From assembly GCA_021203465.1 (NCBI GenBank), contig JAJQBC010000151.1, positions 1 through 64,000 on the forward strand: DNA of 64,000 nt, in the 5' to 3' direction. The notes under the pieces were generated by a model that saw only the letters and a program-made list of their open reading frames with translations, was not told the DNA's origin and made no database searches. Within the stretch, counting starts at the first letter, position 1. Each line of letters opens with the position of its first letter. Source of the stretch: Lachnospiraceae bacterium. Lineage in GTDB: Bacteria; Bacillota; Clostridia; Lachnospirales; Lachnospiraceae. The position numbers and the translations under genes are program-made. Positions 767 to 26,474 of this stretch are shown piece after piece.

Positions 767-3280
767 ATGTTTCAGTTATTTCTGAAAAATAAAAAAGCGA
801 TCGGCCTGACTGTGGCGGTGCCGCTGCTGGCGCTCGTGATGCTCGCGGCGGGGATTCTGCTCGCCCGCGGTGGTCAGGATCGCTTCGCGCGGGACGGTTC
901 CGTCTACGAGGTCAGCGTGGCGGAGGACAGCACGGCGACCGTGAGTCCGACTTATTTCTCGGCGGGCACGGCGCTGCAGCGCAGCGCGTCCGCGACTGTC
1001 AGCTTTCGCGGCGAGGACGGAGAAACCGATGAAGTAGGGACGACATCTTTTGTCCACTATGCGGACGGTGCGATCACTTCGGTGGATGGCATGGTGCTGA
1101 CCGATCTCGCGGATTTTCCGTCCGGCTGGATGGACAGTTACTATCTCGACTCCCTGCTGGCGCTGGAGTATACGGACGGCGTCTATACGATTGAAAATAA
1201 CACGACGGAGCTTTCCTTCGAGGAATTTCTCCTGAAGACCGGCGACGACGACTATCTCATCGCCTCTCCGACCCTTACGCTGAGCCGCGCGGACGGCAGC
1301 GAGAGCACGGTCGAGGGAGGCTTCCTTGAACTTCACTATCTGGACAGCGACGCGGTGGCGGTGCGCGCGACCGACGGCACGGAGGCGTGGCAGTTTCTGG
1401 CAGACGGCGCGACGGTCACCCTGGACAATGGCGCGGTGCTGGAGCTCGGAACGGCCACGATTAACAGCGGCGTGCGCGACGAGGAGAGCGGCGAGTACAC
1501 GGCGCTGCTCGCACTGCTGAGCCTGACGGTCTCCTCCGAGAACGCGGTGCGCGTAGAGTCCGCTTCCTATGCCTCCTCCTCGGGGAACTGGGTGGAGCCG
1601 ACCTTCCACTTTACGGCGGTGGACGGGGAGTCCGGCGCTGACGGCGCCGACGGTGATATCGGGGAAGACGGCGATTCCGGCGAGAGCGGCACGGCGGGCA
1701 ACGCCGGCGCATCGGGTGAGGACGGAACGGACGGCGGCAGCGGCGGCAGCGGCGGCAGCGGAACGGGCGGTACGGCGGGCCGTGACGGCGAAGGCACCGA
1801 CAGCGACGAGTTTGACCTCTCCGATACACCCTATGTGAATATCGTGGAGTGGGATCAGACGGCGGGCACGGTCGACTTCTCCCTGCGCGTCTACAATTCC
1901 AGCCTGATCAAGACCGGTTCGACCGATATGTACATCCTGAACGTGGCGACCGGCGCGGTGGTGACGGTGACGCCGCAGGATCTTGATCTGGGCAGCTGCG
2001 CAGACGGCGTGGTCTACGGCACCTACTCCGCCACGGTGGAGCCGGATACCGAGTACCGCCTGATCATCAGCGCGCAGGTGTTGCAGTCCGAGTCGGACGA
2101 CGGATCGACGACCTACGCGAAGAGCATCCTTGTCTCCCGCACCTTCCGCACCGATACGAACGGCTTCAACCTGAAGAAGGTGTCGGCGGACTATATCACG
2201 GCGGACAATATCGACAGCTACGACAGCTACGCGAAGGAGGACAGCGCCTGTCTCGGTTTCACGGTGACGCTCTCCGGCAATCAGACGATCGAAAAGATCA
2301 GCAGCTTCACGATTTACGACGCGGAAGGGACAGAATATACGGACGCCAGCTATGACGACGATCTCACCGTGCTGGAGCAGACCGCTGAGGACGGTTCGGT
2401 CTTCATGGTCTACGGCCTGAAGTCCAATACCGAGTATACCTTCCTCGTGGAATATGAGCTCACCTCCGGTTCGACGGGCTCTTTCACCGGGACGTGGACG
2501 ACGCTGAAGGCGACGCCGACGGTGACAGACGTAGTCTTTGATTATAATGAAAAACGCTTCTTCATCTCGAGCGTGACCTGCGAGGATGATCCGGACGACG
2601 CGGTCGCTTACTATACGCATGAGATTTATCGTTACTACGATGACGGACTCGACGAGGACAACCTCCTCAAGAGCAAGGTGACGACGGACGAGAGCGCCTA
2701 CATCTACCTGAACGGTTCGACGATCTGCTCGGGCACGGACAAAACGACGAGCCAGCTGTATTACTATGGAAACAAGGTCTATGTGACCTGGTACGACAAT
2801 GAGAAGTACGTGACGAAGGAGGTCGAGCAGTCCTCCTCCTGGAGCGCGCAGAATATACCGGACACCTCGAGCTCCTATGTGCAGTTCGTGGAGGCGACGG
2901 ACAGCACTGACAGCGGCGTCACGACCAGCCAGATCGACGGTTATCTCGTGCTCTACACAGGCGATAACCAGACGATCTACTGCGGCGACAGCGATATGCA
3001 TCGTATTCTCGTACAGATCAGCGCGGCGGGCAATACGGACGTGCTCTACTACTATGACCTGACCGACTGGACAGTGTCGACAAATAACACGACTTACAGT
3101 TCCGTAAAATCGGGTACAACCTCATTCACGGCCTACGGCAAGACACCGCGGATCACGCTCACCGGTCTTTCGCAGGGCACGACTTACACGGTGACGGTGA
3201 CGGCCTACTTTGGCTCCTCGTCGAGCACGAGCTCGACGGTCGGCAGCACCTGGATCAAAACGGAGACGTCGACAAACTAA
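767..3280 (+). CDS. Large membrane-anchored surface protein with collagen-like stalk and Fn3-like repeats
   Basis: Predicted surface protein of 837 aa and first member of the paralogous giant-protein family of this cluster. Residues 11-34 form an N-terminal hydrophobic anchor after a Lys-rich start, with no lipobox and no clear cleavage site. It continues as a membrane-proximal domain (about 35-285) carrying the family signature segments SFVHY and EAWQFL. A Gly-X-Y collagen-like stretch follows (287-343), then Fn3-like beta-sandwich modules to the C-terminus. There is no LPXTG motif or C-terminal membrane helix, so attachment is by the N-terminal helix only. Composition is rich in Ser, Thr, Tyr, Asp and Gly and poor in Cys and Lys. 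It is followed 24 bp later by its larger paralogue and is probably co-transcribed with it. Role unknown; inferred to be an extracellular partner of the rotary ATPase encoded downstream. Confidence 0.85.
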   Translation: MFQLFLKNKKAIGLTVAVPLLALVMLAAGILLARGGQDRFARDGSVYEVSVAEDSTATVSPTYFSAGTALQRSASATVSFRGEDGETDEVGTTSFVHYADGAITSVDGMVLTDLADFPSGWMDSYYLDSLLALEYTDGVYTIENNTTELSFEEFLLKTGDDDYLIASPTLTLSRADGSESTVEGGFLELHYLDSDAVAVRATDGTEAWQFLADGATVTLDNGAVLELGTATINSGVRDEESGEYTALLALLSLTVSSENAVRVESASYASSSGNWVEPTFHFTAVDGESGADGADGDIGEDGDSGESGTAGNAGASGEDGTDGGSGGSGGSGTGGTAGRDGEGTDSDEFDLSDTPYVNIVEWDQTAGTVDFSLRVYNSSLIKTGSTDMYILNVATGAVVTVTPQDLDLGSCADGVVYGTYSATVEPDTEYRLIISAQVLQSESDDGSTTYAKSILVSRTFRTDTNGFNLKKVSADYITADNIDSYDSYAKEDSACLGFTVTLSGNQTIEKISSFTIYDAEGTEYTDASYDDDLTVLEQTAEDGSVFMVYGLKSNTEYTFLVEYELTSGSTGSFTGTWTTLKATPTVTDVVFDYNEKRFFISSVTCEDDPDDAVAYYTHEIYRYYDDGLDEDNLLKSKVTTDESAYIYLNGSTICSGTDKTTSQLYYYGNKVYVTWYDNEKYVTKEVEQSSSWSAQNIPDTSSSYVQFVEATDSTDSGVTTSQIDGYLVLYTGDNQTIYCGDSDMHRILVQISAAGNTDVLYYYDLTDWTVSTNNTTYSSVKSGTTSFTAYGKTPRITLTGLSQGTTYTVTVTAYFGSSSSTSSTVGSTWIKTETSTN
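1625..1795 (+). repeat. Collagen-like Gly-X-Y coding repeat
   Basis: In-frame Gly-X-Y triplets covering residues 287-343 of the 837-aa surface protein, rich in GADG, GEDG and GGSG units. Acidic residues dominate the X and Y positions and proline is absent, unlike animal collagen. It lies exactly between the membrane-proximal domain and the Fn3-like region, as in the paralogues. Confidence 0.85.
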
Positions 3281-3304
3281 TCCGTAAAGGAAGGACGATC
3301 TGGA

Positions 3305-6300
3305 ATGATAAAGAGATCAAAAAGCATCATAGCGATAACAGGCGTCGGCCTCGCGGTTCTGATCGCGGTCATTGTGGGCGCGGTAGTCCTGGGTTCGCCG
3401 CAGCGGACGGCCTTTGCGGAGGACGGTTATATTCTCACGGCGGAAGTGGACGAGTCCACGGAGAGCGGCACGCTCAGCACGAAGCTCTGGTTCAGCGGCG
3501 GTTCCCGCTACAGCTCCTCCGGCAGTTCGATCAGCTTCGTCAGCTCGGAGGGCAGCCAGATCGAGGCGGACGCGGACAGCTTCGTCCACTATGAGAGCGG
3601 CACGGTCACGACGGTGACGGAGAGCTCTGTCATGGATCTCGACGACTTTGCCTCGGGCATCATTTCCTATTATACGATGGAGCCGGGCGACAACCTGTAT
3701 ATGGAAGGCGGTTTCTACTATCTTGGGCAGGATACGGAGAGCTCGGACAGTTTTGAAAATTTCCTTGCAAAGAACAGCGACACCCGTTACATGCTGGGCT
3801 CGCCGATGTTGACGCTGATGCGCGCCTCCGGGCAGGGCGGCGAGAGCATCGACGCCGGCTTTGTGGAGATTGAGTACCTCGCCTCGGATAAGAGCGTTGC
3901 TCTGCTCAATGATGGTGTGAATGCATGGCAGTTTCTGACACAGGACTGCTATATCGAGTTTTATAACGGCGTGCGCCTGGACCTCGCAAGCGGGGAGCTC
4001 TATTACCCGCTGGAGACCGCGGACGAGGAGAGCGGTACGGAGGCGCTGACCTATAGCCTCGCGATCGACGACATCGAGATTGGTACCGGCTCGGCCACAG
4101 CGACGGTGGGCGATGTCTCGACGAATGCCTCACAGGACGGCTCCGGCTATCCGGTCTACCGTTTTACCGTGATCAACGGCGCGGACGGCGAGTCCGGCTC
4201 TGACGGGGAAGACGGTGAGGAAGGAGCAGAAGGCGAAGAGGGCGTGCTCGGGCAGACCGGCGTGACGCCCGGTGAGGGCGAAGAGGGTGAGGCCGGCGCG
4301 GACGGCGCGACTGGCGAGGCCGGCGTGAACGGCGCCGCGGGCGGCACGATGTCCGGCGTGAAGGTTGCGACGACGATTCCGGTCGTGACGCTGACTGAGT
4401 GGAGTGTCAACGGGCAGACGCTGTCCTTCACCGCCTCGATGAGTGAGGAATCGGAGGACAGTGTCGTGGACGGGACGACGGTCATCACGCTGACCGATCT
4501 GGATTCCGGAGAGGTCATCTACTGGAGTGCCTCCGCTGACGACGATGCGGAGGACTACGGCAGTGAATATGACTTTGCGGCGAATAACGGTCAGGTCTCG
4601 ATCAGCACGAGCAAGCTGACGCCGGGCCACGAATATCGCCTGACGATTACCCTCACCTACACGCTCGACGATGAGGAGGAAGTGACGGCGGATATCCTGA
4701 CGCGTGTCTTCACGGCGGACGATTACGGCCTCTCCTTTGACCTCGTCGATCGCACGACCTCGACGCTGACCTTCTCGCTCGACAGCTCGAACCGCAATGT
4801 GGACGTGGAGTATGTCAGCGTCTATGTGAACGGCGTGTGGGTCTATGACGCTTCCCCGCAGGAATTTGAGGACGGCTATGTACTGGATCTCTGGTCGCTG
4901 AATGTCGTTGACGGCTACGGGGAAGCGGAGGACTATGCGAATCAGTCCTGGACCGTCACCTTCAAGCCGGTCTTCAATGTGACGACCTACACGGCCGACG
5001 GCGAATACACGACGACGACCTGGGGCGATACGGAGGCGACGGAGGTCTCCTATGAGTACATCATCTCGACGCTGAAGAAAGCGCCGACCCTGGGCGGCGT
5101 GCGCCTGACCGCCTACAACTCCGGCTACCTGATGGCGGAGGTGCTGGGCGCGTATAATTCCGGCAGCGGCAGCTATGACGCGGTCGAGGACGAGGACGAC
5201 ACGATCTCGAGCGTGCTCTTCAAGCTGTACGGCAGCTATGCGGACATGGAAGCGGACACGAACGCGGTCGCGACAAAGACCGTGACGACCGGCTATGTCG
5301 GCTACTTTCAGGTGTCCGAAGATGCGAATGAAGCGGTACATACCGAGAAGACCTACTATCTGCGCGCCTGGTATACCTGGAGCGACGGCTCGGTCGTGAC
5401 GGAGTCGATCGTCTACAGCAGCTCCGATTCGCCGGATACGGTGGAGAGCGAGGATGATGGAGATTCCAGCGTACATAAGTGCGCGGGTGACTATGCCGCG
5501 GACAAGAACAGTCTCCTCGCGATCACGAAGCAGCAGCTCTCCTTCGAGGGCGACTGCACGATCTGGAACACGGTGGACGACTACGCGGCCGACGTGGCTG
5601 ATAGGATAGACGACGACGGCTCGCAGAACGCCAGCGGCATTACCTTCAATGAGATCAGCGGCAAGATCGTTGCCTCCGTCAGCCTTTCGAACAGCTACGT
5701 CGTCTCCCCGGACTATCCGCTCGAGCTGCAGATCTCGGGAGAGCCGGATTACTACAATGTGGTGACTTTTAATGAGATAGAGTCTTATGTAGATGCGACG
5801 GCGACGATGGGCTATGACAGCACACTGGCCAGCGGGAGCACTCCCACGGAACTTAAGAACTTTACCGAACTCGATCTCGCCGTCGACCTGACCGGTCTGA
5901 AGGCCGACACCTCCTACATGTTCACGCTCTACGGCTATACGAAATCGGACGACAACACCTACACGCGCGTCACTCTGGGCTCGCTCTCGCTGACGACCGC
6001 GCAGGAGCCGGGGATCGAGGTCAATGTGATGACGACGCAGGAGGTCGCGACCGACACGGGCATCGGTTTCGCCTTCTACATCGGCGCGTCGGACGCAACA
6101 AATTATTATGACAGTAACTACGCCTATTATGAAGATGATGATTATCTGCAGGATACCGACGCCTCCTACCGCTCGCTCTACAGCCTGACCTTCTACCTGT
6201 ACAGCGCGGACAGCTCCACCCCGATCGGTTACTATACCTTTACCGATGACTACACGAACGTTGCCGGCAGGAGCTCCCTCTACGAGGATTTTTACGGTGA

Positions 6301-9300
6301 GACAGGGAGTGACGGAGTGGAAAGCCTTGTCCAGTCCCTCAGCGCCTACGGGGGCGTGGTCGGCGTTGGAACTTCCTACACGAACCGCTTTGTCGACTTC
6401 AACGGCAAAACGATTTCGGAGAGCGCGCTCTCGAGCGGCAATTACTATGCAGTGGCAGTCCTGGCCTACGACTATACGGAGTACCGCTACGAGACGATGA
6501 CGGCCGGCACGAGTACGCTCTACGACTACTATGCCTGGACCTCCGCGGAGGCAAAATATGTCAATGAACTCACGATCAGCGGCAATAAGACTTCCAATAC
6601 GGTCGCGCTCACCTCGCTGCCCTACACCTCACTGACGGAGGCCGCCTACACGGACTCCGACACGAAGGAGCTGTACTACATCGAGGTGGAGGAGCTGCTG
6701 AACAGCGAGCTCGGAGATTATGACTATTACAGCGGTGATGACAACGACGACGAGGATCTCTACAGCGATTTCTGGGACGCGGATACAGTGGCGGGTCTGA
6801 AGCTGAGCTGCGGGTATCAGGGCGACTCGGTCTCCGGCACCTTCCCGACGACGAGCTTCACCTACTACGTCTACGATCTGGCGACCTGGGAGACGATGGT
6901 GAGCGCGGAGCAGGATATCTCGACGGATGCGACAGTAAAGGATTCCTATGTGACGAGCTTTACGCTGGAGATGTATACAAACAACTGGAGTTCCCCGCCG
7001 GAAGTCTGGCTGCTCTTCTATAATGAGGACGACCTCCCGATGGTTTCGGGCAACGCCGTTGAGGTCAACGACATAACGGGCGTCGACTATATGAGGGATC
7101 TGGATACGAACGGGGATGGAATCGTTGATATCATTATCTACTATATGAACGCCGAAGTCTTTTCCCGCGGCCACAGCTATATCTTCCGCTACGAGGCGAC
7201 CATCGATGGCTACAAGACGGGCGCGACGTCGTATTCGAGTGATAATGGGACATTTTATTACCCGCAGACCATCTATGAGGAGGCGGACACGAAATATACA
7301 GCCGCGAACGCGCTTGCCTCGCAGACGATCAGCGTCTACCGCCAGACGCCGGAGATCTACTCCTGGCTCGAGGAGACGAGTACGGATGAGAGCACAGGTG
7401 TGCGCAGCGACTCCTGGCAGATCTATGTGAGCGATCCGGACGGCGCACTCGACTGGAAGACGATGCTCGGCACGGGCGATGACGATGCCCGTTATGCCAA
7501 TACCAGTGCCGGTATCCTGAACCTGCTGGGCAGCTCTGCGAGCGACAGCACCCTGTCCGGCCTGACCTTTACCCTGAAATCGCTGACCAGCAGCGGATCA
7601 AGCTACAGGGAGGGAAGCTATGCTCTGACGACTTCCACGGGCTATTACGGCACGGAGGCCGACACAGGCGAGCAGTTGAGCAGCGAGCTGAACGACACAG
7701 AGCTCGGCTATATCGCGGAGGCGATGACATACCGCAAGATGAACGACATGGAGGTCGAGAGCTACGGCCTCGGTTCCGGCGCACTCACAGTCTCCGGCCT
7801 TTCCGCCTCGGGCGGCAGCTATCAGATGCTCCTCGACTATCGGCTGCTCGACGATGAGGGGAGTGTCGCGGGCACGGCCTGGACGAGCGTCGCGCTCGTG
7901 CAGCACCTCTATATCGCGAAGATGGACGCGGACACGCTGGCGGCGCAGATCACGCTCAGTGAGCCGGATATCCAGGACGATCAGGATACCGTGCGCATCT
8001 ACCTGCAGGCTTCCGGTGCATCGAGCACAACAGACACCGCCTATAGCGGCAGCGACTATCTGAACGCGGTGAACGCGATCTCGGCGGTGCAGCTGACCGC
8101 GCATGTGAAAAACGGCACTGGCTATGATGATATATATGAGCGGGATGCGAATGGGGAAGTGGATCATACTACTGTAAAGACCCTCACGCTTATTCCGAAT
8201 GCCCCGGAGGACACGGGCGCGACGACGACGGACTGCCGCTACTATCTGGAATTCCTGCTGAGTGATCTCGACGATGCGGAAGACGCGACTCTGCAGTTCG
8301 ACGCGGGCGATACGCTCTCCTTCGAGCTGAACGTCTACTACCTCACGGGGGCGAGCTACAACTATACGGCGGCGGGCAGTTATCTCACGACGACGTCCGG
8401 CGGCAGCTACTTTGCGCTGAAGCATGTGAATTCCTTTGAATATCAGAGCAGCCTCTACGGCGTCTCGGGTTATTCGCAGCTCCTTGCGAAGTACGCCTAT
8501 TCTTCGAACAATACGCGCTACACGAGCTATGGAAGCGCGGGCGGTTCGCTGTTCCAGATCGACAGCACCTTTTCAATCTCCACGCTGCCGTGGACGCAGA
8601 CGCTGAAGGCGTACAGCGCGCCCGCCGATGCCTCCTTCACGGGGACAGGCCTGTTGGCGACAAAGGGTCTGGAGACGACGCTGTCCTCGAGCGGCGGTTA
8701 CGCGGAGGCCTATGTGTTCGAGCTGATGGTGACAGCGACGAGCATGAGTTTCGGCGCGCAGGAAGCGTATGACTACTATGCGGCGAGCCTTACGGTGCCC
8801 TCCGCAGTGCCCTCCCTCTCGGACGGCGCGGCGCTGGGCGGCGTCGTCACGCTGGAGCTGACCGGCACAGTGAAGAACTGGAACCGCGTGGACTACGGGA
8901 GCGAGAGCTTCCACCTCTACTACCTGATCTATGACTATACGAACGGGACACCGGGAGATCTTGTCGCCGTGCAGGTCGGGAATGCACTTACGAGCAGCAG
9001 CCTTGACGTCAGCTTCGCGCCCCTTGCGACAGGAGGGGACTACTGGATCGAGGTCTACTACAAGCAGTCGGGTGACACGACGGACGAGAATCTGTTCAGC
9101 GGCTATGACGCGGATTCGGAGACGTACGGTCAGGGGCAGACGATCCTTGTCACGGCGAACAAAACTCTCGCGGAGGCCATCGAGACTGCTGTGACCACCA
9201 CGACCTATAACGACGGAACTGAGGATGTCAATCTTTTCACCAGCCCGGTGGGCAGCGATGGCTACGCGGTCTCGACTTCGGAGGGCCTGACCTTCTCGAG

Positions 9301-10663: not shown

Positions 10664-10681
10664 CCATAGAAGGAGTAAGAT

Positions 10682-13600
10682 ATGCGACTGTTTTCTTCTA
10701 AAAAAATTTGCCTGGGGATCGCGGCAGCGGCAGTGCTGTTCGCCGCCGCGCTGGTCGGCGTCTCGGCGTACCGCTCCGTTGCCGCCCGGCATACCTTTGC
10801 GGAGGACGGCTACATCCTGACCATTGAGGAGGATGAGGAACAGATCGTTGTGAACCGGCAGAACAGCTTCACAGCGGGGAGCCGCTATGCCTCGGCGGGC
10901 GTTTCCTCGGTGAGCTATCAGAGCGCGGACGGCGGCAGCGTGCAGGTCGACAGTGACAGTTTCATCCACTATGAGAGCAGTTCGCTCGCCTCGGTGGCGG
11001 ACGGCACGATCGCGGACCTGGACGACTATCTGGACGGCGTGATCGGCTGCTACAGCCTCGCGGCGGGGAATACGCTCAGCTGGACGGGGAGTGTGTTCAC
11101 GATCGCATCCGGCGATGGGGAGAAACAGTTTGAGAACTTTGTCTGGAAGAGCAGCTCTGTACGCTGTCTCATGGGCTCGCCGCAGCTGACGATCAGCTTC
11201 TCGGGCGGACAGGAAGAGATCGTGACCTCGGGCTTCCTCGAGCTTTCCTACATGGATGAGGAGAGCTCGGTTGTGCAGCTCACCGACGGCGAGAGCGCCT
11301 GGCAGGTCGTGGCAGAGGGCTGCAGCATCACATTTGCCAACGGGGTCGTGCTCGATGCCGCGAGCGGGAATATTCTGACGCCGGAGGAAGCGGAAGTCTA
11401 CGCGGCAGGCGAGACGGTGTCCGTGCGTCTGTCTCTGGGAACGATCGAGATCGACGCCTCGGCCTACACTTCGCTTGGCACGAGCTACGCTTCGACGCAG
11501 TCGTCGCCTCCTTCCTTCCTCTTTACGATTGTGAATGGAGCGGACGGGGAAGACGGCTCTGACGGCGCGGACGGGGAGACCGGCGCGGATGGCGTTGAGG
11601 GCGAGACCGGCGCCCAGGGCGCGGACGGCGCGGACGGGGAAGACGGAAGCGCGGGCTCGGGCGGCGTCGGCGGCTATACCGATACTTCTGTGCGCAACGG
11701 CACAGTGACCATCGGTGACAATGTCTATACCGGGCAGCCGGAGGTGATCGTCTGCGAGAACACCTGGAATATCATGAGCGACGGCACCTTCTCGCTGGCC
11801 TACGACGAAGACAGCTACGACGCGATCGACGTCGCGACGAACAGCGCGCACGTCTATCTCTACAATGTCGAGACCGGTGAGATTATCCAGGAATGGGGAC
11901 AGGACGACGACCTGACGCTCACCGATCAGGCGACCGCTTTCAGTATCTATGACACGGATGCGAAATATACGGATGTCGTGCTCGAGACCGGCACGACCTA
12001 CGCGATCATCGTCACCGACACCTACATGCTCGGCGGCACGACCTACACGGCGAAGGTGATGGAGCGCATGTTCACGACGGACGACACCTCCCTTTCCGCC
12101 TCGCTGACTGCCAGGACGACGGGGAGTTTTGGAGTCTCGCTGGGCAGTTATACTTCGGTCAGCAGTGTCACTCTGACCGTGAAGGATGCGAATGGGAACG
12201 CTGTATATGACAATTACGAGCTGACGGGGATCACAGACTTTTCTTCCTTCGAGATCGAAGGGCTCTCGCCGGATACCTGGTACAGCGTGGAGCTGGAAGT
12301 AACAGCGGTTCCGGAGGGCAGCACTGTCGCCGTCTCTTCGACCTTCAGCTTCGAGTGGACGACGCTCAAGGAGGCTCCGACGGTCGGCGGCGTCAGCCTT
12401 ACCGCCTCCTCCGGGTATCTCACGGCGGAGATCCTCGGCGCGTATAACAATGAGACGAGCGTCTACGGGGAGATTGTCGACGATTATGAGACGATCGAGT
12501 CGGTGACCTATTATCTTTACACAGTGGATACGACGGACACGACGGTGCTCGCGCTCTCCGATACGCAGACCTCGACGGCGGGCGGCTCCTGGCCGGCTTA
12601 CTTCGAGAATGTGGCGAACAATACGACCTACTATGTGATCGCGGAGTACAGCTGGACGGACGGCACCTCGAGCTATACGACGACGGTGATGGAGTCCGAC
12701 AGCACGAAGTCTGCTTCCGGCTACAGTGCGATCAGCACGCCCTCCGGCCGCGCCTGGGCTTCGGCGAAGGCGCAGAGCGGCAGCGGTATCATCCTGTCCT
12801 TCTCCGGTTCGAGCGAGATCTGGAACTCGAGCACGGACACAAGCCTTGGCACGACCTACGAGTCCATCAAGGGCTCGGTCAATGTGAACCTGAACGGCAC
12901 GCGCATCCGGGTGGACAGCGTGCGCACGCTCTCACTCACCGTGACGGATAACCTGACCTATGAAAAGACCTGGACCTTCGACAACGCCGGCGGCGTCGAG
13001 GGCGATGTCGAGGGCATCTTCGCGCTGCCCGTCGATCTCGACGGCCTGCTCATTGGCACGACCTATTCGATGACTTTAAGCGGTTACGTTTACAGCCAGA
13101 ATTCCGACACACCGACGCTGCAGACGCTCGGCACGCTGACGGTCCGCACGGACGATGACGCGGAAATAGAGTTCGGCATGCAGCTCGTAGACACCGGCGG
13201 GATCGGCGTGGAATTCGCGCTCGGCGACACCACTTACGCGACAGCGATCACGAAGGATGCGCTCTATGATCTCAGCAGCGGAACGTATGATGACAGCTAT
13301 TATGAGGAAACGAGCGCGGCCTACCGCAATCTCAGCAGCATCGTCTTCGAACTCTATGGCCTCAGTAATGTCAGCAAGGATACGGGCGGAACTGTCAATT
13401 ATGACAACGCGACGGAGACGCTGATCGGCACCTGCGAAGTCGTCGTTCTGGATGAAAATACCGGCGAGAAGGCGACCGTGACACCGGGCTACAGCCTGCT
13501 CTACCAGAACTATTACGGCAAAAATGCGGCGTCGAGCGGCACGAACACGGTCGGCGTCGGCGAAGAGTTCAACTACCGCTTCGAGTACGCGAGTTCTACG

Positions 13601-14404
13601 AACCGCAGCGGCGAGGTCTCGACGGAGTATATCGAGCAGGTCAGCGATTACTATCGTATCAGGGTCACGCTCTGCTATGACTACACTTACGACCGCTACA
13701 CCTACGAGGCTTCGGACGGCGAGGACACGCCCTACGATTACATCCTCTATACGAAGGGCCTGGACCTTGACGACTACGTGAACGAGCCAACGATCAATAC
13801 CGAGGAGTCCTATGTGAATATTCCCTGGCAGGATCGCCCAATCTCCCCGACGAGCAGCTATGTCCTGGACTCGTCCGGCTCGGCGATCACGGCCGAACCC
13901 CTCGCGAACGGAGAGGTGAACGACTTTGCCTGGAGCTCGAATGCATCCGGCACGGATCTCTATGACGCCGCGCTGGAGGAGACGACCGGCGTGGGGATGA
14001 GTCTCGAGACAACCTTTACGGACAGCTCGGCGCGCACGCGCCGGGTGAGCTTCTACGGGATGAACTATGCCCTGGACACGGTATGGGAGACGACCTACGG
14101 GAGCGTCTCGCTCAGTGACGTGGCGGATGCCACATATACGACCGATGAGGGTGACACGGCCTATGTCCTGCCCTTCAAGTTCACGCTCTGGATGACACAG
14201 GACGGCGAGGCGCCGGATTCGCCGGATTATGATGATCTGGATGATCAGGTCGCGGACGCGGACGAGACCGCGACCTGGCGCACGACGATCCCGACGATCT
14301 ATCTGTTGATCGGTGAGAAGGGTATGAGTCAGCCGACCTACGGCGGTCTCGATTGGGAAAGCGTCAGCGAATACAGCGCCAGTAAAGACCGCGGCTATTA
14401 CTAG
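10682..14404 (+). CDS. Giant surface protein B, N-terminal part up to an in-frame amber stop
   Basis: Paralogue of giant protein A. It has an N-terminal anchor (about residues 9-30), the same AEDGYILT segment, the membrane-proximal domain (SFIHYESS and SAWQVV signatures), a collagen-like stretch at 286-331, and then Fn3-like modules whose junctions (TTLKEAPTVGG) match protein A. The frame ends at TAG 14,402-14,404, but the same frame continues open to 18,196 with the same composition and domain type. The whole span would encode about 2,504 aa, nearly identical in length to protein A (2,452 aa). The break is therefore a single in-frame stop in an otherwise intact gene rather than a real C-terminus. 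The TAG could derive from CAG by one transition. Confidence 0.85.
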   Translation: MRLFSSKKICLGIAAAAVLFAAALVGVSAYRSVAARHTFAEDGYILTIEEDEEQIVVNRQNSFTAGSRYASAGVSSVSYQSADGGSVQVDSDSFIHYESSSLASVADGTIADLDDYLDGVIGCYSLAAGNTLSWTGSVFTIASGDGEKQFENFVWKSSSVRCLMGSPQLTISFSGGQEEIVTSGFLELSYMDEESSVVQLTDGESAWQVVAEGCSITFANGVVLDAASGNILTPEEAEVYAAGETVSVRLSLGTIEIDASAYTSLGTSYASTQSSPPSFLFTIVNGADGEDGSDGADGETGADGVEGETGAQGADGADGEDGSAGSGGVGGYTDTSVRNGTVTIGDNVYTGQPEVIVCENTWNIMSDGTFSLAYDEDSYDAIDVATNSAHVYLYNVETGEIIQEWGQDDDLTLTDQATAFSIYDTDAKYTDVVLETGTTYAIIVTDTYMLGGTTYTAKVMERMFTTDDTSLSASLTARTTGSFGVSLGSYTSVSSVTLTVKDANGNAVYDNYELTGITDFSSFEIEGLSPDTWYSVELEVTAVPEGSTVAVSSTFSFEWTTLKEAPTVGGVSLTASSGYLTAEILGAYNNETSVYGEIVDDYETIESVTYYLYTVDTTDTTVLALSDTQTSTAGGSWPAYFENVANNTTYYVIAEYSWTDGTSSYTTTVMESDSTKSASGYSAISTPSGRAWASAKAQSGSGIILSFSGSSEIWNSSTDTSLGTTYESIKGSVNVNLNGTRIRVDSVRTLSLTVTDNLTYEKTWTFDNAGGVEGDVEGIFALPVDLDGLLIGTTYSMTLSGYVYSQNSDTPTLQTLGTLTVRTDDDAEIEFGMQLVDTGGIGVEFALGDTTYATAITKDALYDLSSGTYDDSYYEETSAAYRNLSSIVFELYGLSNVSKDTGGTVNYDNATETLIGTCEVVVLDENTGEKATVTPGYSLLYQNYYGKNAASSGTNTVGVGEEFNYRFEYASSTNRSGEVSTEYIEQVSDYYRIRVTLCYDYTYDRYTYEASDGEDTPYDYILYTKGLDLDDYVNEPTINTEESYVNIPWQDRPISPTSSYVLDSSGSAITAEPLANGEVNDFAWSSNASGTDLYDAALEETTGVGMSLETTFTDSSARTRRVSFYGMNYALDTVWETTYGSVSLSDVADATYTTDEGDTAYVLPFKFTLWMTQDGEAPDSPDYDDLDDQVADADETATWRTTIPTIYLLIGEKGMSQPTYGGLDWESVSEYSASKDRGYY
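11537..11674 (+). repeat. Collagen-like Gly-X-Y coding repeat
   Basis: Residues 286-331 of giant protein B, with GADGEDG, GAQGADG and GSGGVGG units. Orthologous in position to the stretches at 1,625 and 4,178. Confidence 0.85.
14402..14404 (+). other. In-frame TAG interrupting giant surface gene B
   Basis: The frame opened at 10,682 is in phase with the ORF listed from 14,501. Only this TAG separates them, and the 96 nt in between contain no other stop and encode typical family sequence. No ribosome-binding site precedes ATG 14,501, so independent translation of the second half looks unlikely. Confidence 0.95.
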
Positions 14405-14500
14405 CGCGCCTACGACGAGAGTGCGCAGATCTGGTATGTCTATGTCTCGGAGTCCTTCCTCGAGCGCGGCAAGACCTACCGCTTCTATTATGACGCGCTG

Positions 14501-17500
14501 ATGTATTACAGCGACAGGACCTGGTCCTGGCCGGAAGAGTACTATGGTAACCAGTGGATCGCGAACGGCGCTTACACCAAGAATACGGCGCTCTCCTCGA
14601 CCTGGACCGCCTTCGAGAAGCAGACGCCCTCGGTGGAGCTCACGCTGCAGAGCAGCAACGAAGATGGCGACACCTGGCAGGTCTATCTAAACGACCCGGA
14701 CAGTGCGCTGGTGTCGCACACCCTGCTCGGCTACAACACCGAGAGCAAGGTGAACAGCAGTCCCATCTGGAGCGACAGCCTGCTCGGCGGCGTAGTGGAT
14801 GCCACCGGGGCTTCCGTGGGCACGCAGACGATCGGGTCGGCTGAGAAATACATCGAGATCACAGTTGAGGATACGGATACAAATACGGATACAACGCTCA
14901 GCTACATAGATTACAGCGATACAGTCACATATCCACATGAGTATGATAATGCCTACAGTAATAAATACTATGCCGTGGTAGAAGAAGTGACGGACAGCGC
15001 CACGGATAATGTCACGGCAAGCGATGACGAACTCGCTGCCATGAAGGCGATCGTCACGGCGCTGAAGGCCGCGGACGAGAGCGGCGGCACCGCCGGAGCG
15101 ACGGTCGTCTGCAGCAATATCGGCGTCGGCCAGTACTACAGCTGGCGCGCGGGCTGTCAGACGATCGACGACTACTATCCGTCGAGCTACCGCGCGACCG
15201 TGACCCTGCTCGGCCATCAGTACAGCGGGACGGGAACCATGACAGCCGGGAAGTGGTCCGGCAATGTGGAGGATGACGATACAGTAGCATTTGCGATCCA
15301 GAAACCGGAGCTCGACGACGATAACGATGTCGCGAAGATCTTTCTTCTGAGGGAGGACGGGACTTCATCGGCGGATTATATTGCGGCGATGCGGCGCATC
15401 GCGGCGGTGGAGATCGTCGTGAAAAATACAGCATATGCTACAAGTCCAGTTGATGATAACAAATATACCTTCTGGAGCGGCATGACCTACGGCCTCAACA
15501 CATCGGGTACCTACGGCTACTACTTCAGCTTCAGCATCAGCGACCTGCCCTCGGGCTTCTATACGGTGGGCGAATCGCTGACGCTGGAATATACCTTCTA
15601 TTACTACAACGGGGAGAGCAGCTTTGAGGTGGCGACGGATGGAGGTTATTACGCCCTGCGCTCCGTCACCTACCACAGCGACGGGGATTACTACGAGCAG
15701 CTGAAGAGCGCCTCTTCGACGGCGCAGCTCAACTACAGTACGAGCGCCTCCTCCTCGATCTACTGGTTTGCGGCGGGTTCGCGAGGGCTGTCGCGCAGCT
15801 ACGCGACCTCGAACAGCGGCGATGTCTATCTCACCGGCTTTACACAGTCCTGGACCCTGAGCGGCGCGCCGCTCGCGAGTTGGTACAGTGATGGAGAAGT
15901 GACACGGACGGAGGACTTAGGCTGGGGCGGCGCGGATTTAAGCGTCGGTTACGACGCGGGGCTTGTGACGGAGTTCTGCGTGCTCGCCACCTTTACGGCG
16001 ACGGGATCGGTCACGACCGGCACGCTCGCGCCGGTGCTCTCGTCGCTGCCGGTCGTCACGAGTGGCCTGACCGAGGCGAAGGTGACCGTAAAGATCGGCA
16101 ACTACGGCCTGATGGATTATCCGGATGGCGAGGACTTCCACCTCTATTACCTGCTCTATGAGGTGACGGATGAGACAGACAGCGACGGCATCGCGCTGCT
16201 CGAACTGAAGGGCGCGATGATCGGCGCTGCGATCGACGCCACCATGGACGGCTCCGATCCGACCCAGACGATCACGCTGACGGATCTCGAGCCGGATAAG
16301 ACCTACTACCTCTATATTTATTATAAAGACAACCGCGGCACGACGGAAGATACGAAGGCGACGGCGGACAGCACGCTTTTTGCTACCGCTTATCAAACTT
16401 ATGACTACACGGACGGCACCTTCACCACAGACGCGACCGTGGCGAAGCTGCTGGAGTCGACGATCATTGCAACGGCAAATTACCCGCGTTCGAACGACGC
16501 CTACAACTGCTTTACCAAGATTTCCGGACAGGGTACGCATCTCCTTACGAGTGCCTACACGGACACGGAAGGCACGGTACATGCGGCGACCTACGACTAC
16601 TACTGCATCATTGAGCCGCAGGATGGGATTGAGATTTCCAGCATGAAGTTCGACCTCGGGAACGACGATCCCTACTATAGCACGACAAATGGGGATGTGA
16701 GCGGAAAGACGCTGAGCTGCTCGGTGACGGTCAGCTACATGCAGGACGAGAACACGGTGGCCTACTTCATCCTCGAGCGCTGCGCGACGAATCTCAACCA
16801 GTCCCTGCCCTCGAACTGGAAGACGGTGCTGATGCCGGAGGACTATTACAGCATCGTGACGACGGCCGGTGCAGAATCCGTGTACTGTACGCCGGCTATC
16901 GAGACAAGTAATGTCCTGAACGCAGGGCACTACGAGTACTACGCGACCTATGAGAAGGACGGCATAACGCTCACCTCGGGCAGCGACTACCAGTATACGG
17001 CGCTGGCTGAGACGGAGACGGGCTCCGGCGTCTATACGGCCTCGATGAGCCTCACCTACTACCCGATGCTGGGCGGCGTGATCGAGCCGGGCTATGTCTA
17101 CCGCATGAAGGCGCTGGTCTACCAGCTGACCTACGACGGCGATGTTCTGAAGAGCGCGGAGCTTGTGAGCATAGACAGCACGGACAGCACGCAGTCCTAC
17201 AGCACGAGCCAGACGACCTGGAGCGCCTACAGCTACAGCTCCGACAATCCGCTCATCAACGTGACGAACCTCGACTGGTCGAGCAATACGATTACCTGCT
17301 ATATCAAGGCGCAGACCGGCTACTATACCTGGCTCGACCGCACGTACTATGTGAGATTGTGCGAGTGGGATACAACAAACAGCGAATGGGTAATTCTGGC
17401 GGATGAAGCTTCAAATGGCCAGGGCGGAACGATAAAATACGGCACAATCACCAGCGGAGGCACGGCAACGTCCATTTATGATTACGCCTTCGGCGTCGAG

Positions 17501-18196
17501 GATTCGTCGACGCAGCTGACCTTTGAGGGGCTCGCCTCGGATACAACCTACTCGATCCAGTTCTTCGGACTGATCGACACAGACTACGACGGCTATGTGA
17601 ACATTGCGTCTGATGGCACACCGCTCGCGGCGGAGTATACGACGACGCCGACTTTCGCGCTTCTGGAAGGCTGGTACCCGACGAGTGATAGCAGCCAGGA
17701 TTCCAAGTATGACGACGGCAGGAGCAGCAACCTCAGCACCCTGAATACATATTATTTCGGCGACGGTACCAATGCTGCAGAGGGCAACCTTTCCGACATC
17801 CTGCTCTGCCAGTCGAGATCGGTCACGACCATGAAAGCGGGCACGACCGCGACGATCGGCAGCTACTACGACTACAACGTGGTTTCCGCCACGCAGCTGG
17901 AACTTTACTTTGAGGACGCGGCGGGACTCGCGAGCACCTCGATCAGCCAGATCGAGTGGACGCTGCACTACGTGGGTATCACCGGCTCGCAGGAGGACCG
18001 CTCCGGCACGACGAGCTCAGTGAAGAACACCTACAGCTCGAGTACGACGCTCACGGACGACGTGACGGTCACGATCACCGACAGCGGCACGAATTTCCAG
18101 CAGAACGGGCACTGGTACTTTACATTGAAGATTACCTACGCGGACGACACGGAGGAGAGCGTTGACTCGTGGGAGATCGAATTCACGGAGTTTTGA
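14501..18196 (+). CDS. Giant surface protein B, C-terminal part after the in-frame amber stop
   Basis: Continuation in the same frame of the gene beginning at 10,682 (true continuation begins at 14,405; ATG 14,501 is merely the first Met codon). It consists of Fn3-like beta-sandwich modules colinear with the C-terminal half of giant protein A, including the calcium-loop-like DTDYDGYVN at nt 17,576-17,602, which matches DIDYDGYLN in protein A. It ends with an ordinary strand-rich tail and TGA. Rich in Tyr, Thr, Ser and Asp. No signal peptide of its own, so it could only reach the surface as part of the full-length product. Confidence 0.75.
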   Translation: MYYSDRTWSWPEEYYGNQWIANGAYTKNTALSSTWTAFEKQTPSVELTLQSSNEDGDTWQVYLNDPDSALVSHTLLGYNTESKVNSSPIWSDSLLGGVVDATGASVGTQTIGSAEKYIEITVEDTDTNTDTTLSYIDYSDTVTYPHEYDNAYSNKYYAVVEEVTDSATDNVTASDDELAAMKAIVTALKAADESGGTAGATVVCSNIGVGQYYSWRAGCQTIDDYYPSSYRATVTLLGHQYSGTGTMTAGKWSGNVEDDDTVAFAIQKPELDDDNDVAKIFLLREDGTSSADYIAAMRRIAAVEIVVKNTAYATSPVDDNKYTFWSGMTYGLNTSGTYGYYFSFSISDLPSGFYTVGESLTLEYTFYYYNGESSFEVATDGGYYALRSVTYHSDGDYYEQLKSASSTAQLNYSTSASSSIYWFAAGSRGLSRSYATSNSGDVYLTGFTQSWTLSGAPLASWYSDGEVTRTEDLGWGGADLSVGYDAGLVTEFCVLATFTATGSVTTGTLAPVLSSLPVVTSGLTEAKVTVKIGNYGLMDYPDGEDFHLYYLLYEVTDETDSDGIALLELKGAMIGAAIDATMDGSDPTQTITLTDLEPDKTYYLYIYYKDNRGTTEDTKATADSTLFATAYQTYDYTDGTFTTDATVAKLLESTIIATANYPRSNDAYNCFTKISGQGTHLLTSAYTDTEGTVHAATYDYYCIIEPQDGIEISSMKFDLGNDDPYYSTTNGDVSGKTLSCSVTVSYMQDENTVAYFILERCATNLNQSLPSNWKTVLMPEDYYSIVTTAGAESVYCTPAIETSNVLNAGHYEYYATYEKDGITLTSGSDYQYTALAETETGSGVYTASMSLTYYPMLGGVIEPGYVYRMKALVYQLTYDGDVLKSAELVSIDSTDSTQSYSTSQTTWSAYSYSSDNPLINVTNLDWSSNTITCYIKAQTGYYTWLDRTYYVRLCEWDTTNSEWVILADEASNGQGGTIKYGTITSGGTATSIYDYAFGVEDSSTQLTFEGLASDTTYSIQFFGLIDTDYDGYVNIASDGTPLAAEYTTTPTFALLEGWYPTSDSSQDSKYDDGRSSNLSTLNTYYFGDGTNAAEGNLSDILLCQSRSVTTMKAGTTATIGSYYDYNVVSATQLELYFEDAAGLASTSISQIEWTLHYVGITGSQEDRSGTTSSVKNTYSSSTTLTDDVTVTITDSGTNFQQNGHWYFTLKITYADDTEESVDSWEIEFTEF

Positions 18197-18205
18197 CGGG
18201 ATGGC

Positions 18206-18228
18206 GATACCGGCGGCATGCGGGTATC
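18206..18228 (+). other. Small hairpin between giant gene B and the 537-aa gene
   Basis: GATACC and GGTATC arms around an 11-nt GC-rich loop, right after the stop codon. There is no T-run, so it is not a classical terminator. It may attenuate transcription or stabilise the upstream message. Confidence 0.3.
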
Positions 18229-18272
18229 CGGCTTACAGCACATAGAGAGAAAATGATGAGGAGGAATGTAAT

Positions 18273-19886
18273 ATGAGACTACTGAGCGGTCAGGTAAAAC
18301 GATTGATCGCCGTCTTCGCGGTCCTCGCGCTCGGCTGTTTCTCGGTCGTCGGCGTGGCGGCGGCGCGCGTGATCGGCAGCCGCGGAGAGAGTGCCGGCGT
18401 ATCCGCGTCCAGCGTTGTCTACGACAATGCCTACAACGCTGTGGAGATGGATGCGGAGGGTGTCGTCAGCAAAAACTGGGACGGCTCCTACTATCTGAGC
18501 AGCGGCGGGACAAAATACAGTCTGGGGACGAGCAGTGTGATCTACGACAGCGCGAGCAACGAGGTGATGGTGCTCGGCGGCGGCTACCAGATCTACGAGG
18601 ACAGCAGTGTGCGCGTACTTGACGACTTTGCGACGCTCTCCTGCGCGGGCACGAATTACGTCAAAATGTCCGACAAGGAATATCTGATCACTGGCGGCAA
18701 TATCACGGACGACGGAGGTTACGTCTCGACGACAGACTACCTCTATATGACGCTGGACAGTTCGAACAATACGCGCCTGCTGAGCGCGGATGTCAATGTG
18801 AAGATCGTCGGCACCGTCACTATCAGCAGCGACGCGGGGATCAGCTTTGACGTCGCGGATGCGACGGTCTCCTTCGGCGACAGCCTGATCAGCGTCGCGA
18901 ATGCGATCAGCAGCTACGCGAACGCGAGCTCGTCTGACAGCACGACCGTCTCAGCCTCCGAGAACGGCGTCTACGATATCACGATCTACGGCGGCAACGG
19001 CGGCGCAGGCGGCGATGGCGGCAGCGGCGGAACCGGCGGCACGGGCGGCACAGGCGGCACAGGCGGCACAGGCGGCACGGGCGGCAATGGCGGCGCGGGC
19101 GGAACCGGCGGCAGCGGCGGAACCGGCGGAGACGGCGGCACGGGCGGCGCGGGCGGCAACGGGCTTTCGGCCAGCAGCGTGTCGGTCTCGACGTCCTCCT
19201 CCTACATGTACCTGCGCAGCATCGAGGCGACGACCTACGGCGTCACAGTGAATTACCTCGTCGTCGACGGCGCGGCGGAGTACGAGGTGCCGACGGTGAT
19301 CGCCTATCCCTACGGCGGGTTCACCGATGCGGCCGCGGCATACGAGGATTATAAGACGAACGGCAGCGACAGCACCGCGAAGGCGATGGTCGTCTCCGAG
19401 GACAATACCGTGGCGGAGCTCACGGGCCTGACCTACGGCACGCGCTACATGCTCGCGATCGGAAACGCGAGCTCGGACGGCAGCTTCACGCTCTGCGACT
19501 CGATGTCCTTCACGACCGAGGACCTGACGACGACGCTGCAGGTGAGTTCGGTGAACAACAGCTCCCTCGTCGTGAGCGCCACGATCACGAGCGGCTTCGA
19601 GCCGGCCAGCGGCTACAGCTTCTATATCGCGGTCTGGGACAGTGATACCAGCGCGGAAGCCTGCCTTGTGACGCTGTCGACCACCGAGGTGAGCGCACTC
19701 AAGTCGAGCTCCGGCCTGACGAAGACCCTGACGCTGGACTATACGCTGACAACACTTGCGAGCAGCACCAGCACACTGCGCGTCGTGCTCTGCTACGGTA
19801 CGGATCCGAGTTACACAAACGCGTCAACAGACCAGAAGTCCTACCAGCTGGTGTCGATCAGTTCTTTCAAGACGAGCAGCAACTGA
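18273..19886 (+). CDS. Membrane-anchored surface protein with GGX glycine stalk
   Basis: Smallest of the upstream surface proteins (537 aa). The N-terminal anchor (about residues 12-33) lacks a lipobox. The ectodomain (about 40-235) resembles the membrane-proximal domain of the family in strand pattern, with a VRVLDDFATL segment. It is followed by a glycine-rich stretch of GG-X triplets (240-297) in place of the acidic collagen-like repeat, then two Fn3-like domains to the C-terminus. The start has a strong AGGAGG site. It is the last surface gene before the ATPase genes, 121 bp upstream of the c-like subunit. Shorter length and a different stalk suggest a distinct structural role, such as a basal or capping element, but this is inference. 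Confidence 0.82.
   Translation: MRLLSGQVKRLIAVFAVLALGCFSVVGVAAARVIGSRGESAGVSASSVVYDNAYNAVEMDAEGVVSKNWDGSYYLSSGGTKYSLGTSSVIYDSASNEVMVLGGGYQIYEDSSVRVLDDFATLSCAGTNYVKMSDKEYLITGGNITDDGGYVSTTDYLYMTLDSSNNTRLLSADVNVKIVGTVTISSDAGISFDVADATVSFGDSLISVANAISSYANASSSDSTTVSASENGVYDITIYGGNGGAGGDGGSGGTGGTGGTGGTGGTGGTGGNGGAGGTGGSGGTGGDGGTGGAGGNGLSASSVSVSTSSSYMYLRSIEATTYGVTVNYLVVDGAAEYEVPTVIAYPYGGFTDAAAAYEDYKTNGSDSTAKAMVVSEDNTVAELTGLTYGTRYMLAIGNASSDGSFTLCDSMSFTTEDLTTTLQVSSVNNSSLVVSATITSGFEPASGYSFYIAVWDSDTSAEACLVTLSTTEVSALKSSSGLTKTLTLDYTLTTLASSTSTLRVVLCYGTDPSYTNASTDQKSYQLVSISSFKTSSN
18990..19163 (+). repeat. GGX glycine repeat with 9-bp DNA periodicity
   Basis: Encodes GG-X triplets (X = N, A, D, S or T). At the DNA level several consecutive 9-bp units GGCGGCACA or GGCGGCACG are nearly identical. 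Units are multiples of three, so slippage would change stalk length without breaking the frame. Confidence 0.9.
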
Positions 19887-19971: not shown

Positions 19972-20253
<282 letters not shown>

Positions 20254-20279: not shown

Positions 20280-21065
20280 ATGTGGTTACTGTTTTTTGTG
20301 GTAGTGCTGGTAATCTGCGCGCTGATGGTCTTCCTCCTGCTTGCGATCCGGCTTCTGACCGCGCAGGCGAAGGATCAGCTGAACCGCTATTTCCTGAAGA
20401 ATCTCGAGACCTATGACCGCCTCGCGCAGAATAAGAGCGAGACGATCGACGAGCTGCAGAGGCAGGCTGATGAGCTCGAGACGCGGATCGGGACTATGCA
20501 GGCGCATATGGATGCGATGGCTGAGATGGACAGGAGCCGCGCGTCCGCGCGTCCGGCGAGCGGCCCTGTGGCGGCCCCGATGGCTTCCGGAGCCTCCTAC
20601 CGTGACGCAGATTTCCTCAAGGACTACGCCTATGTGCGCCGGAACATGAAGCTGAACTGGAAGGAGCGCGTGCGGGAGTTGCTCGCGGAGCTGAAGGATC
20701 AGCCGGATCCGCAGCTTGCGCTTTACCGCGGGATGCTCGAAAAGCTTCCGCAGGAGCGGCTTTACGATATGCTGACGCTCTCGGACGGGGATCAGGAGGC
20801 GCTGCTTCAGGAGCTCTTTGATGAGCGTGAGCGCGAGGCCCTTGCAGAGTGGGCTGCGGAGCGGGGAGGCTTTGACCTGCTGGCGCTGCGCACTTTCCTT
20901 TCCGACTATGTGCGGGCGCACGAGGACCGTGTCTACATCCGCACGGGCAATCCGGAGGAGGTAGAGGGGCTTGAGAGTGAGCGCGTGCACGTGCTCTACG
21001 ATCCCGCCGTCCACGAGGGCGTGCGCGTCTCGTATAAGAATTTAGTGTATGATTTTGGACTGTAG
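20280..21065 (+). CDS. b-delta-like fusion stator subunit
   Basis: 261 aa occupying the b/delta position of an atp operon. Residues 2-24 are a single membrane helix. Residues about 30-85 are a charged coiled coil, as in subunit b. An Ala/Pro/Ser-rich linker (about 88-108) leads to a helical domain and a strand-rich end (YDPAVHEGVRVSYKNL) that resembles the C-terminus of delta/OSCP-type subunits, where a Gly-Gly-x-x-x strand closes the protein. I read it as a peripheral stalk fusing b and delta, a layout known from mycobacteria with a different arrangement. It ends in TAG immediately before the alpha gene, 9 bp away. Sequence similarity is weak, so the fusion is inferred from layout and topology. 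Confidence 0.7.
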   Translation: MWLLFFVVVLVICALMVFLLLAIRLLTAQAKDQLNRYFLKNLETYDRLAQNKSETIDELQRQADELETRIGTMQAHMDAMAEMDRSRASARPASGPVAAPMASGASYRDADFLKDYAYVRRNMKLNWKERVRELLAELKDQPDPQLALYRGMLEKLPQERLYDMLTLSDGDQEALLQELFDEREREALAEWAAERGGFDLLALRTFLSDYVRAHEDRVYIRTGNPEEVEGLESERVHVLYDPAVHEGVRVSYKNLVYDFGL

Positions 21066-21074
21066 GAGAAATAA

Positions 21075-22400
21075 ATGGCAAATTACGTAGAAGAACTGGT
21101 GGCAAATAAACTGAATGAGATCAAGTCGCGCACGAACGAGTACGAGGTCGGCCATGTCGTCTCGGTGCGCGAGTACATCCTCGAGGTCAGCGGTCTCGAG
21201 GGAGCGGCCTTCCACGAGCGCGTGCTCGTCGCGGGCCATTCGGAGGGCTATATCATCGGCATCCGGCGCAGCTCCGTGATGGTCGCGCTCATCAAGAGGC
21301 GCGGCGACGTCTATGTCGGCGACGAGGTAACCGCGACGGGCAGGGAGTTCTGCCTTGCCTACGACGAACAGGCCTTTGGCCACGTCGTCAACATGAACGG
21401 TGAGGATGTGCTGACGGGCAAGATGTTCGAGCACACCGAGGAGATGCGCATCGAGAACCCGACGACGCCGATCATGGACCGCACGAGCGTGAACCGTCCG
21501 CTGGAGACCGGCCTCTCCGGCATCGACCTCATCTACCCGATCGGCCGCGGCCAGCGCCAGCTGATCATCGGCGATAAGAAGACGGGCAAGACGCAGATCG
21601 CGCTTGACGCCATCCTCAACCAGAAGGACAAGGATGTGCTCTGCATCTACATCGCGATCGGCAAGATGAAGAAGAATGTCAAGGAGGTCTACTCTGAGCT
21701 GCAGAGAAAGGGCGCGATGAAGTACACGCTGATTCTGGCGGCGCTGAACGACGACCTGCCGCCGGTGCTCTCGCTGACCCCCTATGCGGGCCTGGCGATC
21801 GCCGAGAAATATATGCTGCAGGGTCGCGACGTGCTGGTCGTGATCGACGACCTCTCACGCCATGCGGACTGCTACCGCGAGATCAGCCTTCTGACCGGCA
21901 AGGTACCGGGCCGTGACGCCTACCCGCCGGACATTTTCTATACGCACTCGCGGCTGCTCGAGAAGGGCTGCCAGCACAAGTGCGGCGGTTCGATCACGAT
22001 CCTGCCGATCGTCGAGACGAGGGGCGGCGACATCACCGACTACATTTCGACGAACATTATCTCCATCACCGACGGGCAGATCGTGCTCTCGAAGAAGAGC
22101 TTCGACCGCGGTGAGAAGCCGGCCATCAACTACGGCCTCTCTGTATCCCGCCTCGGCGGCGCAGTGCAGACCGGTCCGATGAAGAAGCTGGGCGCGCGTG
22201 TGCGCCGGGAGCTTTTGAGCTACCTCGAGACGCGCGAAGTCTATGAGCTGGCGAATGTGGATGAGATGGGCAAGGAGCTGCAGGACCGCTTAAAGCGTGG
22301 CGCGAAGCTCTTAAAGGGCCTGGGGCAGTACAAGTACAGCCCGCTTTCGCAGGAAGAGATTATTAAGAAATTCGAAGACATTTACGGGGAAGAAGCATGA
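21075..22400 (+). CDS. atpA: F1-like ATPase alpha subunit (divergent paralogue)
   Basis: 441 aa, clearly an alpha-type F1 subunit: Walker A GDKKTGKT at 166-173, the PGRDAYPPD loop, SITILPIVET, and the arginine-finger segment SVSRLGG with R359. The N-terminal helix that binds delta is present but short. The C-terminal helical domain is clipped compared with the usual 500-515 aa. In normal synthases alpha is regulatory and supplies the arginine finger to the catalytic beta site. It sits between the b-delta fusion and gamma and overlaps gamma by 4 nt (ATGA). The order alpha-gamma-beta is that of ordinary atp operons. The surroundings (giant surface proteins, no a subunit) show this is not the housekeeping copy. 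Confidence 0.95.
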   Translation: MANYVEELVANKLNEIKSRTNEYEVGHVVSVREYILEVSGLEGAAFHERVLVAGHSEGYIIGIRRSSVMVALIKRRGDVYVGDEVTATGREFCLAYDEQAFGHVVNMNGEDVLTGKMFEHTEEMRIENPTTPIMDRTSVNRPLETGLSGIDLIYPIGRGQRQLIIGDKKTGKTQIALDAILNQKDKDVLCIYIAIGKMKKNVKEVYSELQRKGAMKYTLILAALNDDLPPVLSLTPYAGLAIAEKYMLQGRDVLVVIDDLSRHADCYREISLLTGKVPGRDAYPPDIFYTHSRLLEKGCQHKCGGSITILPIVETRGGDITDYISTNIISITDGQIVLSKKSFDRGEKPAINYGLSVSRLGGAVQTGPMKKLGARVRRELLSYLETREVYELANVDEMGKELQDRLKRGAKLLKGLGQYKYSPLSQEEIIKKFEDIYGEEA

Positions 22401-23173: not shown

Positions 23174-24595
<1,422 letters not shown>

Positions 24596-26472: not shown

Positions 26473-26474
26473 AT

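Follow-up and report, generated by a model that had tools for sequence, protein, structure and literature searches.

Why several surface proteins encoded beside an F1-like ATPase should each carry a long run of glycine triplets at the same place is the question raised by this locus, together with that of whether these runs act singly or as one stalk. The window, by which we mean the whole 64,000-nucleotide stretch of Lachnospiraceae DNA that was analysed, carries the operon on its plus strand. Three genes encode what we call GXY-anchor proteins: the first (837 residues, 767-3280) has an N-terminal transmembrane (TM) helix, a beta-rich anchor, a GXY stalk and an Fn3-like C-terminal part; the second (2452 residues) is encoded at 3305-10663; the third is interrupted by an in-frame TAG, its first 1240 residues lying at 10682-14404 and the remainder, in the same frame, at 14501-18196. 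The GGX-anchor protein (537 residues, 18273-19886) follows with a TM helix, a beta-rich anchor, a GGX stalk and an Fn3/Ig-like C-terminal part. We refer to these proteins by their start positions.

A sequence-only reading of this DNA had placed four glycine-repeat stalks, the three of GXY type being acidic, between anchor and distal domains, and the coordinates, the triplets and the acidity were all confirmed. The stalk of the 767 protein (1625-1795, residues 287-343) is an unbroken run of 19 triplets. That of the 3,305 protein (4178-4348, residues 292-348) also has 19, with one Gly replaced (GVT-PGE-GEE); a second copy of the operon in this genome has its break there too. In the 10,682 protein there are 16 triplets (11537-11680, residues 286-333), and the GGX stalk of the 18,273 protein (18990-19163, from residue 240) has 19 GG triplets, or 20 when the final Gly is counted. 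When each stalk was shuffled 20,000 times using its own residues, the observed run was reached 0, 3, 0 and 2 times for the 767, 3,305, 10,682 and 18,273 proteins, respectively. The Pfam Collagen family (PF01391) is the best match of the three GXY proteins at 19.1, 23.7 and 25.7 bits, and none of them reaches the gathering score of 27.2. Position X of the GXY stalks is mostly Glu or Ala and position Y mostly Asp, Ala or Ser; one stalk chain carries about eleven GEE repeats. Over 389 stalk triplets we counted 306 Asp or Glu, 28 Lys or Arg and 5 Pro; two of the three GXY stalks are proline-free, as the sequence-only reading had it, and the 3,305 stalk has one Pro, in its break. A chain so acidic, with hardly any Pro, Lys or Arg, is ill suited to a triple helix; this composition is unfavourable for a homotrimer and constitutes the main chemical doubt over any triple helix.

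How the triplets are maintained can be judged by comparing the window's operon with the genome's second copy, which lies on contig C129 and has a beta subunit 90% identical. The register Gly is kept at 73 of 74 positions, while 36 of these codons bear synonymous changes, and the X and Y residues of the GXY stalks are identical at only 36 of 108 places. Had the repeat arisen by slippage of a fixed unit, the codons would have stayed alike, and in a loose linker the glycines would have been lost; judging from these codons, the Gly-triplet register is under selection. The stalks are preceded by distinct motifs, a conserved strand-like PxFxV-[ND]-G before the GXY stalks and IxIxGGxGG before the GGX stalks; the PxF strand is absent from the homologues of the GXY protein without Gly triplets, as if strand and repeat formed one cassette.

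The four stalk-bearing proteins had been described as paralogues. BLAST relates the three GXY anchors to one another at 30-38% identity, and the GGX anchor is tied to them by profile comparison alone (probability 94.8%). AlphaFold models of the GXY anchor (10,682 member) and of the GGX anchor, with pLDDT of 84.6 and 83.7, both show one long N-terminal helix and then a beta-rich domain, confidence being low only at the stalk-side end. Compared with the PDB, these models gave no Foldseek match below E 0.001 and a best VIA-align Z of 4.8, and we therefore name no known fold for the anchors. The Fn3 array proposed for the distal parts is weakly supported, as only a few proteins give an fn3 hit, and their scores of 19.8-22.8 bits lie under the cut-off of 25. 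The idea of a structured linker fixed between anchor and distal domains is supported.

Downstream of the GGX gene lie an 81-residue F-type c-subunit-like protein (20008-20253; Pfam ATP-synt_C, 32.8 bits, cut-off 24), a b-like stalk subunit with a TM helix and a coiled coil (20280-21065), the F1-like alpha (21075-22400), gamma (22397-23173; Pfam ATP-synt, 70 bits) and beta (23186-24595) subunits, then a protein in the epsilon position (24602-24937) and a conserved polytopic membrane protein (24927-25724), neither of the last two having a family match. The b-like protein gave no specific family match in profile searches and is assigned by its position and appearance; it is kept at the same place in related loci. 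We recognised no a subunit among the genes of the window's operon. An alignment of 71 c-like sequences from two phyla shows no carboxylate at the canonical position of helix 2 in any of them: 68 have no acidic residue in this helix, two have a terminal Asp and one an Asp beside the canonical place. Without this ion-binding residue, the c-like ring probably moves no ions.

The operon continues with an anchor-only paralogue without stalk (25726-26472), linked by profile to the GXY anchors (probability 95.4%), and with a giant surface protein (26469-30653) composed of a TM helix, its own anchor, a linker of about 122 residues rich in Ser, Gly and Glu but not made of Gly triplets, and an Fn3-like part. 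Profile comparison gave no clear homology of the giant's anchor to the GXY or GGX anchors. An in-frame TGA ends this ORF, and the continuation, in the same frame at 30762-41723, consists of ORFs of 776 and 2854 residues ending with a C-terminal TM helix; its portion at 33159-41723 contains long Ser/Asp/Thr and Ala/Glu repeats ahead of that helix and had no match in Pfam. In-frame stops after which the ORF resumes thus occur three times in the window's giant genes (TAG at 14402-14404, TGA at 30651-30653, TAG at 33090-33092). They also break giant genes, often as TAG, in the second copy on C129 and in G014 C15, and in G011 C108 (L018/L019) an in-frame TGA interrupts the GGX repeat of a GGX gene that is intact elsewhere. 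TAG terminates ordinary genes here too, and the stops of the giant genes may reflect decay, sequence error or read-through.

Relatives of the operon were sought in genome contigs with a profile of the gamma alignment, which found 116, of which 80 were read, mostly from metagenome assemblies. The operon is present in Bacillota and Actinomycetota; its hosts are mostly uncultured Lachnospiraceae, Oscillospiraceae, Family XIII, Bacilli and Coriobacteriales, together with a cultured actinomycete, Bifidobacterium colobi LC6. In an even sample of the host family, 6 of 397 genomes carried it. The usual order is GXY-anchor giant, GGX-anchor protein, c, b, alpha, gamma, beta, epsilon position, membrane protein, anchor-only protein and giant; it is conserved in most of the 80 loci and rearranged in some. 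Several genomes hold at least two copies of the complete operon that have diverged: G000 (C123, C129), G007 (C2, C17), G012 (C44, C129), G440 and G450. Between anchor and distal domains the slot is always occupied by low-complexity sequence, not always by Gly triplets: AT-rich relatives, Bacilli-type loci and B. colobi have linkers rich in Asn, Ser, Glu and Gly or in Thr and Pro. With 18-19 related loci bearing such linkers at the same place, a collagen sequence was rejected as an essential feature of the system. In five of these loci (L108, L080, L077, L099, L070) the two linkers share composition and short motifs, both being TPTP-rich in L108 and both proteins having an STIINGNVNG-like motif in L099.

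We next consider the lengths of the stalks, for which triplets were counted strictly and the N-termini of cut GXY genes were retrieved from their genomes. Across genomes the length runs from 12 to 69 triplets (up to 68 for GXY), which excludes a stalk length fixed in all genomes; it is not free either, the GXY length being tied to the GGX length within each locus. The two lengths are identical in 19 of 41 chain pairs and agree within one triplet in 32, for a permutation mean of 5 and a maximum of 14 in 20,000 permutations. Counted per locus, and leaving aside the L075 pair because the contig ends inside its GXY gene, the two lengths differ by no more than one triplet in 28 of 34 loci (permutation mean 3.8, maximum 12 in 20,000). 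Phylogenetically independent contrasts, calculated on a FastTree tree of alpha, gamma and beta, correlate with r of 0.93 on raw and 0.75 on log lengths. Sister loci shift jointly, with GXY/GGX lengths going from 15/17 to 22/24, from 23/23 to 26/26 and from 25/26 to 21/22, or standing at 39/40 versus 68/69. The exceptions to the match are L058 (22/14), L066 (12/7) and G012 C129 (20/11), the sole GXY chain on the last contig being of the 10,682 type. The 10,682-type chain is also off the match, 16 versus 19, in both operon copies of this genome.

These counts bear on the partners of any mixed coil. The sequence-only reading had seen equal lengths in the window and proposed a coil of the 767, 3,305 and 10,682 proteins; the idea of a coil of unlike chains is supported, but equality holds for the 767, 3,305 and 18,273 proteins (19 each), which would be the partners, and not for the 10,682 protein, with its 16 triplets and the in-frame stop in its gene. 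Trios of two GXY chains and one GGX chain with equal length occur in the window (19, 19, 19), in its second copy (19, 19, 19), in G014 (16, 16, 16) and in G007 (17, 17, 17). Most related loci have one GXY protein and one GGX protein. In the genomes of L051, L076, L083, L089 and L097, a ten-triplet pattern counted over the whole genome occurs no more often than within the locus and revealed no further protein with at least 10 consecutive Gly triplets, the L083 genome having one stray ten-triplet match on the other strand; there is thus no third Gly-triplet gene in these five genomes and, most loci having a single GXY gene, a trio of three GXY chains is not the rule.

Several mechanisms could bring two such repeats to the same length. 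That they are neutral low-complexity sequence, produced by base composition and repeat slippage and devoid of structural role, we regard as highly improbable. The presence of Gly triplets does rise with the GC content of the locus (Spearman 0.72) and the DNA has a 9-bp periodicity, but neutrality is contradicted by the synonymous divergence around fixed glycines and by the matching lengths of two genes. In addition, the two repeat types never swap (GG triplets make up 0-19% of the stalks on GXY anchors and 71-100% on GGX anchors), and the GC trend has exceptions both ways, with long stalks at 36-37% GC (L089, L058) and none in the B. colobi locus at 60% GC, for which reason GC content was rejected as a full explanation. 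Independent spacers of set length, each chain crossing alone the same wall or surface layer so that its length follows the thickness, without contact between stalks, are in our opinion improbable. The position of the slot between TM anchor and distal domains would suit them, as would the low-complexity linkers of any composition held there by relatives and the tendency of the giant's linker to be longer in loci with long stalks. This last co-variation is loose (Spearman 0.39) and noisy, the linker having been measured by a start-of-Fn3 rule whose starts are clearly misplaced in several cases (e.g., L059, L067, L086, G007_C2), and a length coupling common to every TM-anchored protein was not retained, being only loose for the giant by this noisy measure. 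The coupling between GXY and GGX lengths survives control for the same noisy linker (partial r 0.77), and a disordered spacer does not need a Gly at every third place. More directly, two loci of one genome share one wall and differ in length while each is internally matched: G007 has 29/28 and 17,17/17, and G450 has 26/26 and, in a second locus retrieved later as a fresh test, 37/38. Wall thickness alone therefore does not set the length and was rejected as its sole cause.

Two separate rods, in which GXY and GGX chains each form their own bundle or helix and their ends are level because the distal domains dock in one complex, would also predict a match within each locus and different lengths for two loci of one genome. 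Linkers without Gly triplets, which are incapable of a collagen helix, speak in the same direction: those of the two proteins co-vary in length with r of 0.92 (17 loci, no tree correction), so that some length coupling exists without collagen sequence. These pairs lie within 3 residues of each other in only 2 of 17 cases, and agreement to one triplet in stalks as long as 69 triplets is more natural for the strands of one helix. Separate rods, which we hold to be rather unlikely, also sit poorly with the four loci where precisely two GXY chains match a single GGX chain in triplet number. The reading we prefer, and consider probable by a modest measure, is that of one hetero-chain triple helix of GXY and GGX strands within the shaft of a non-pumping F1-like membrane machine. 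Stalk lengths which vary up to sixfold and yet nearly always match suggest one such mixed-chain stalk.

According to this mixed-helix reading, the stalks would be the shaft, on the wall side, of a membrane machine based on an F1-like ATPase that does not pump. The GXY protein or proteins (767 and 3,305 in the window) and the GGX protein (18,273) would each be fastened by a single TM helix with a beta-rich anchor, and their Gly-triplet segments, lined up in register, would form the strands of one mixed triple helix. The simplest stoichiometry would be two GXY strands and one GGX strand, the chain being used twice in loci with a single GXY gene. The stalk, which may cross the wall, would keep the Fn3-like arms at a distance from the membrane and could pass to them the force of ATP hydrolysis. 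An extended version, a rotary machine of wall-bearing bacteria in which the hetero-trimeric shaft passes through the wall, is turned or pulled by an F1-like motor whose c ring carries no ions, and moves giant surface arms, is speculative and, taken whole, unlikely.

Our literature search found no paper on this operon, nor on collagen-like proteins together with Lachnospiraceae, and comparison must be made with other systems. Collagen chains which choose unlike partners are described for animals. Prokaryotic collagens are homotrimers according to a review (PMC8968730), typical bacterial ones being rich in Pro at X and in Thr at Y. In both Pfam and NCBIfam the stalks match collagen-like proteins best and, like Scl1/Scl2, Bcl and relatives (PF01391), they have a Gly at every third residue between the membrane- or wall-side and distal domains, with no hydroxyproline machinery assumed. 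They differ by lying under the Pfam gathering score, by having almost no Pro and a Y position not rich in Thr, by their N-terminal TM anchor and by existing as two chain types of matched length. If the reading is right, two unlike bacterial chains with equal triplet number, from 12 to 69, would be a natural heterotypic assembly, and matched triplet number would provide a sequence test for strand partners. Glycine-rich repeat proteins of the PGII type include the snow flea antifreeze protein and gp38 of phage S16. The GGX runs of the 18,273 protein and its orthologues also resemble those of the mycobacterial PE_PGRS proteins (PMC10216338, PMC9436101), from which they differ by reaching 69 GG triplets and by having a GXY partner chain of equal length; Pfam found no PE domain in the 18,273 protein, which has a TM helix and a beta-rich anchor instead.

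F1-like ATPases tied to surface proteins are known from mycoplasmas (PMC3369863, PMC12994834, PMC11864180), where coupling of ATP use to these proteins has been proposed (PMC12994834, PMC3369863), and in the literature found, such ATPases driving surface proteins are described in mycoplasmas only. As in the mycoplasma Type 2 (the M. mobile gliding motor) and Type 3 (F1-like X0, MIB-MIP) systems, alpha, beta and gamma are encoded here beside large membrane-anchored surface proteins, with no evident ion channel. A search for the mycoplasma Type 3 beta found none, the control genomes likewise giving zero. The window's subunits score far under the cut-offs of the mycoplasma families, NCBIfam MMOB1660/1670 and MSC_0619/0618 giving 402 (cut-off 600) and 306 (520) bits for alpha and 375 (850) and 382 (570) bits for beta, and the operon differs further by its c-like ring subunit, its b-like subunit, its triplet stalks and its giants. 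With the F1F0 ATP synthase it shares alpha, beta, gamma, c and probably the b and epsilon positions, and it departs from that enzyme by a c subunit without the canonical helix-2 carboxylate, by the lack of a recognised a subunit and by an operon held in common with surface proteins. With this operon, an F1-like ATPase encoded together with surface proteins, and with a c ring that looks unable to carry ions, is present in numerous Bacillota of the gut and in a Bifidobacterium available in culture.
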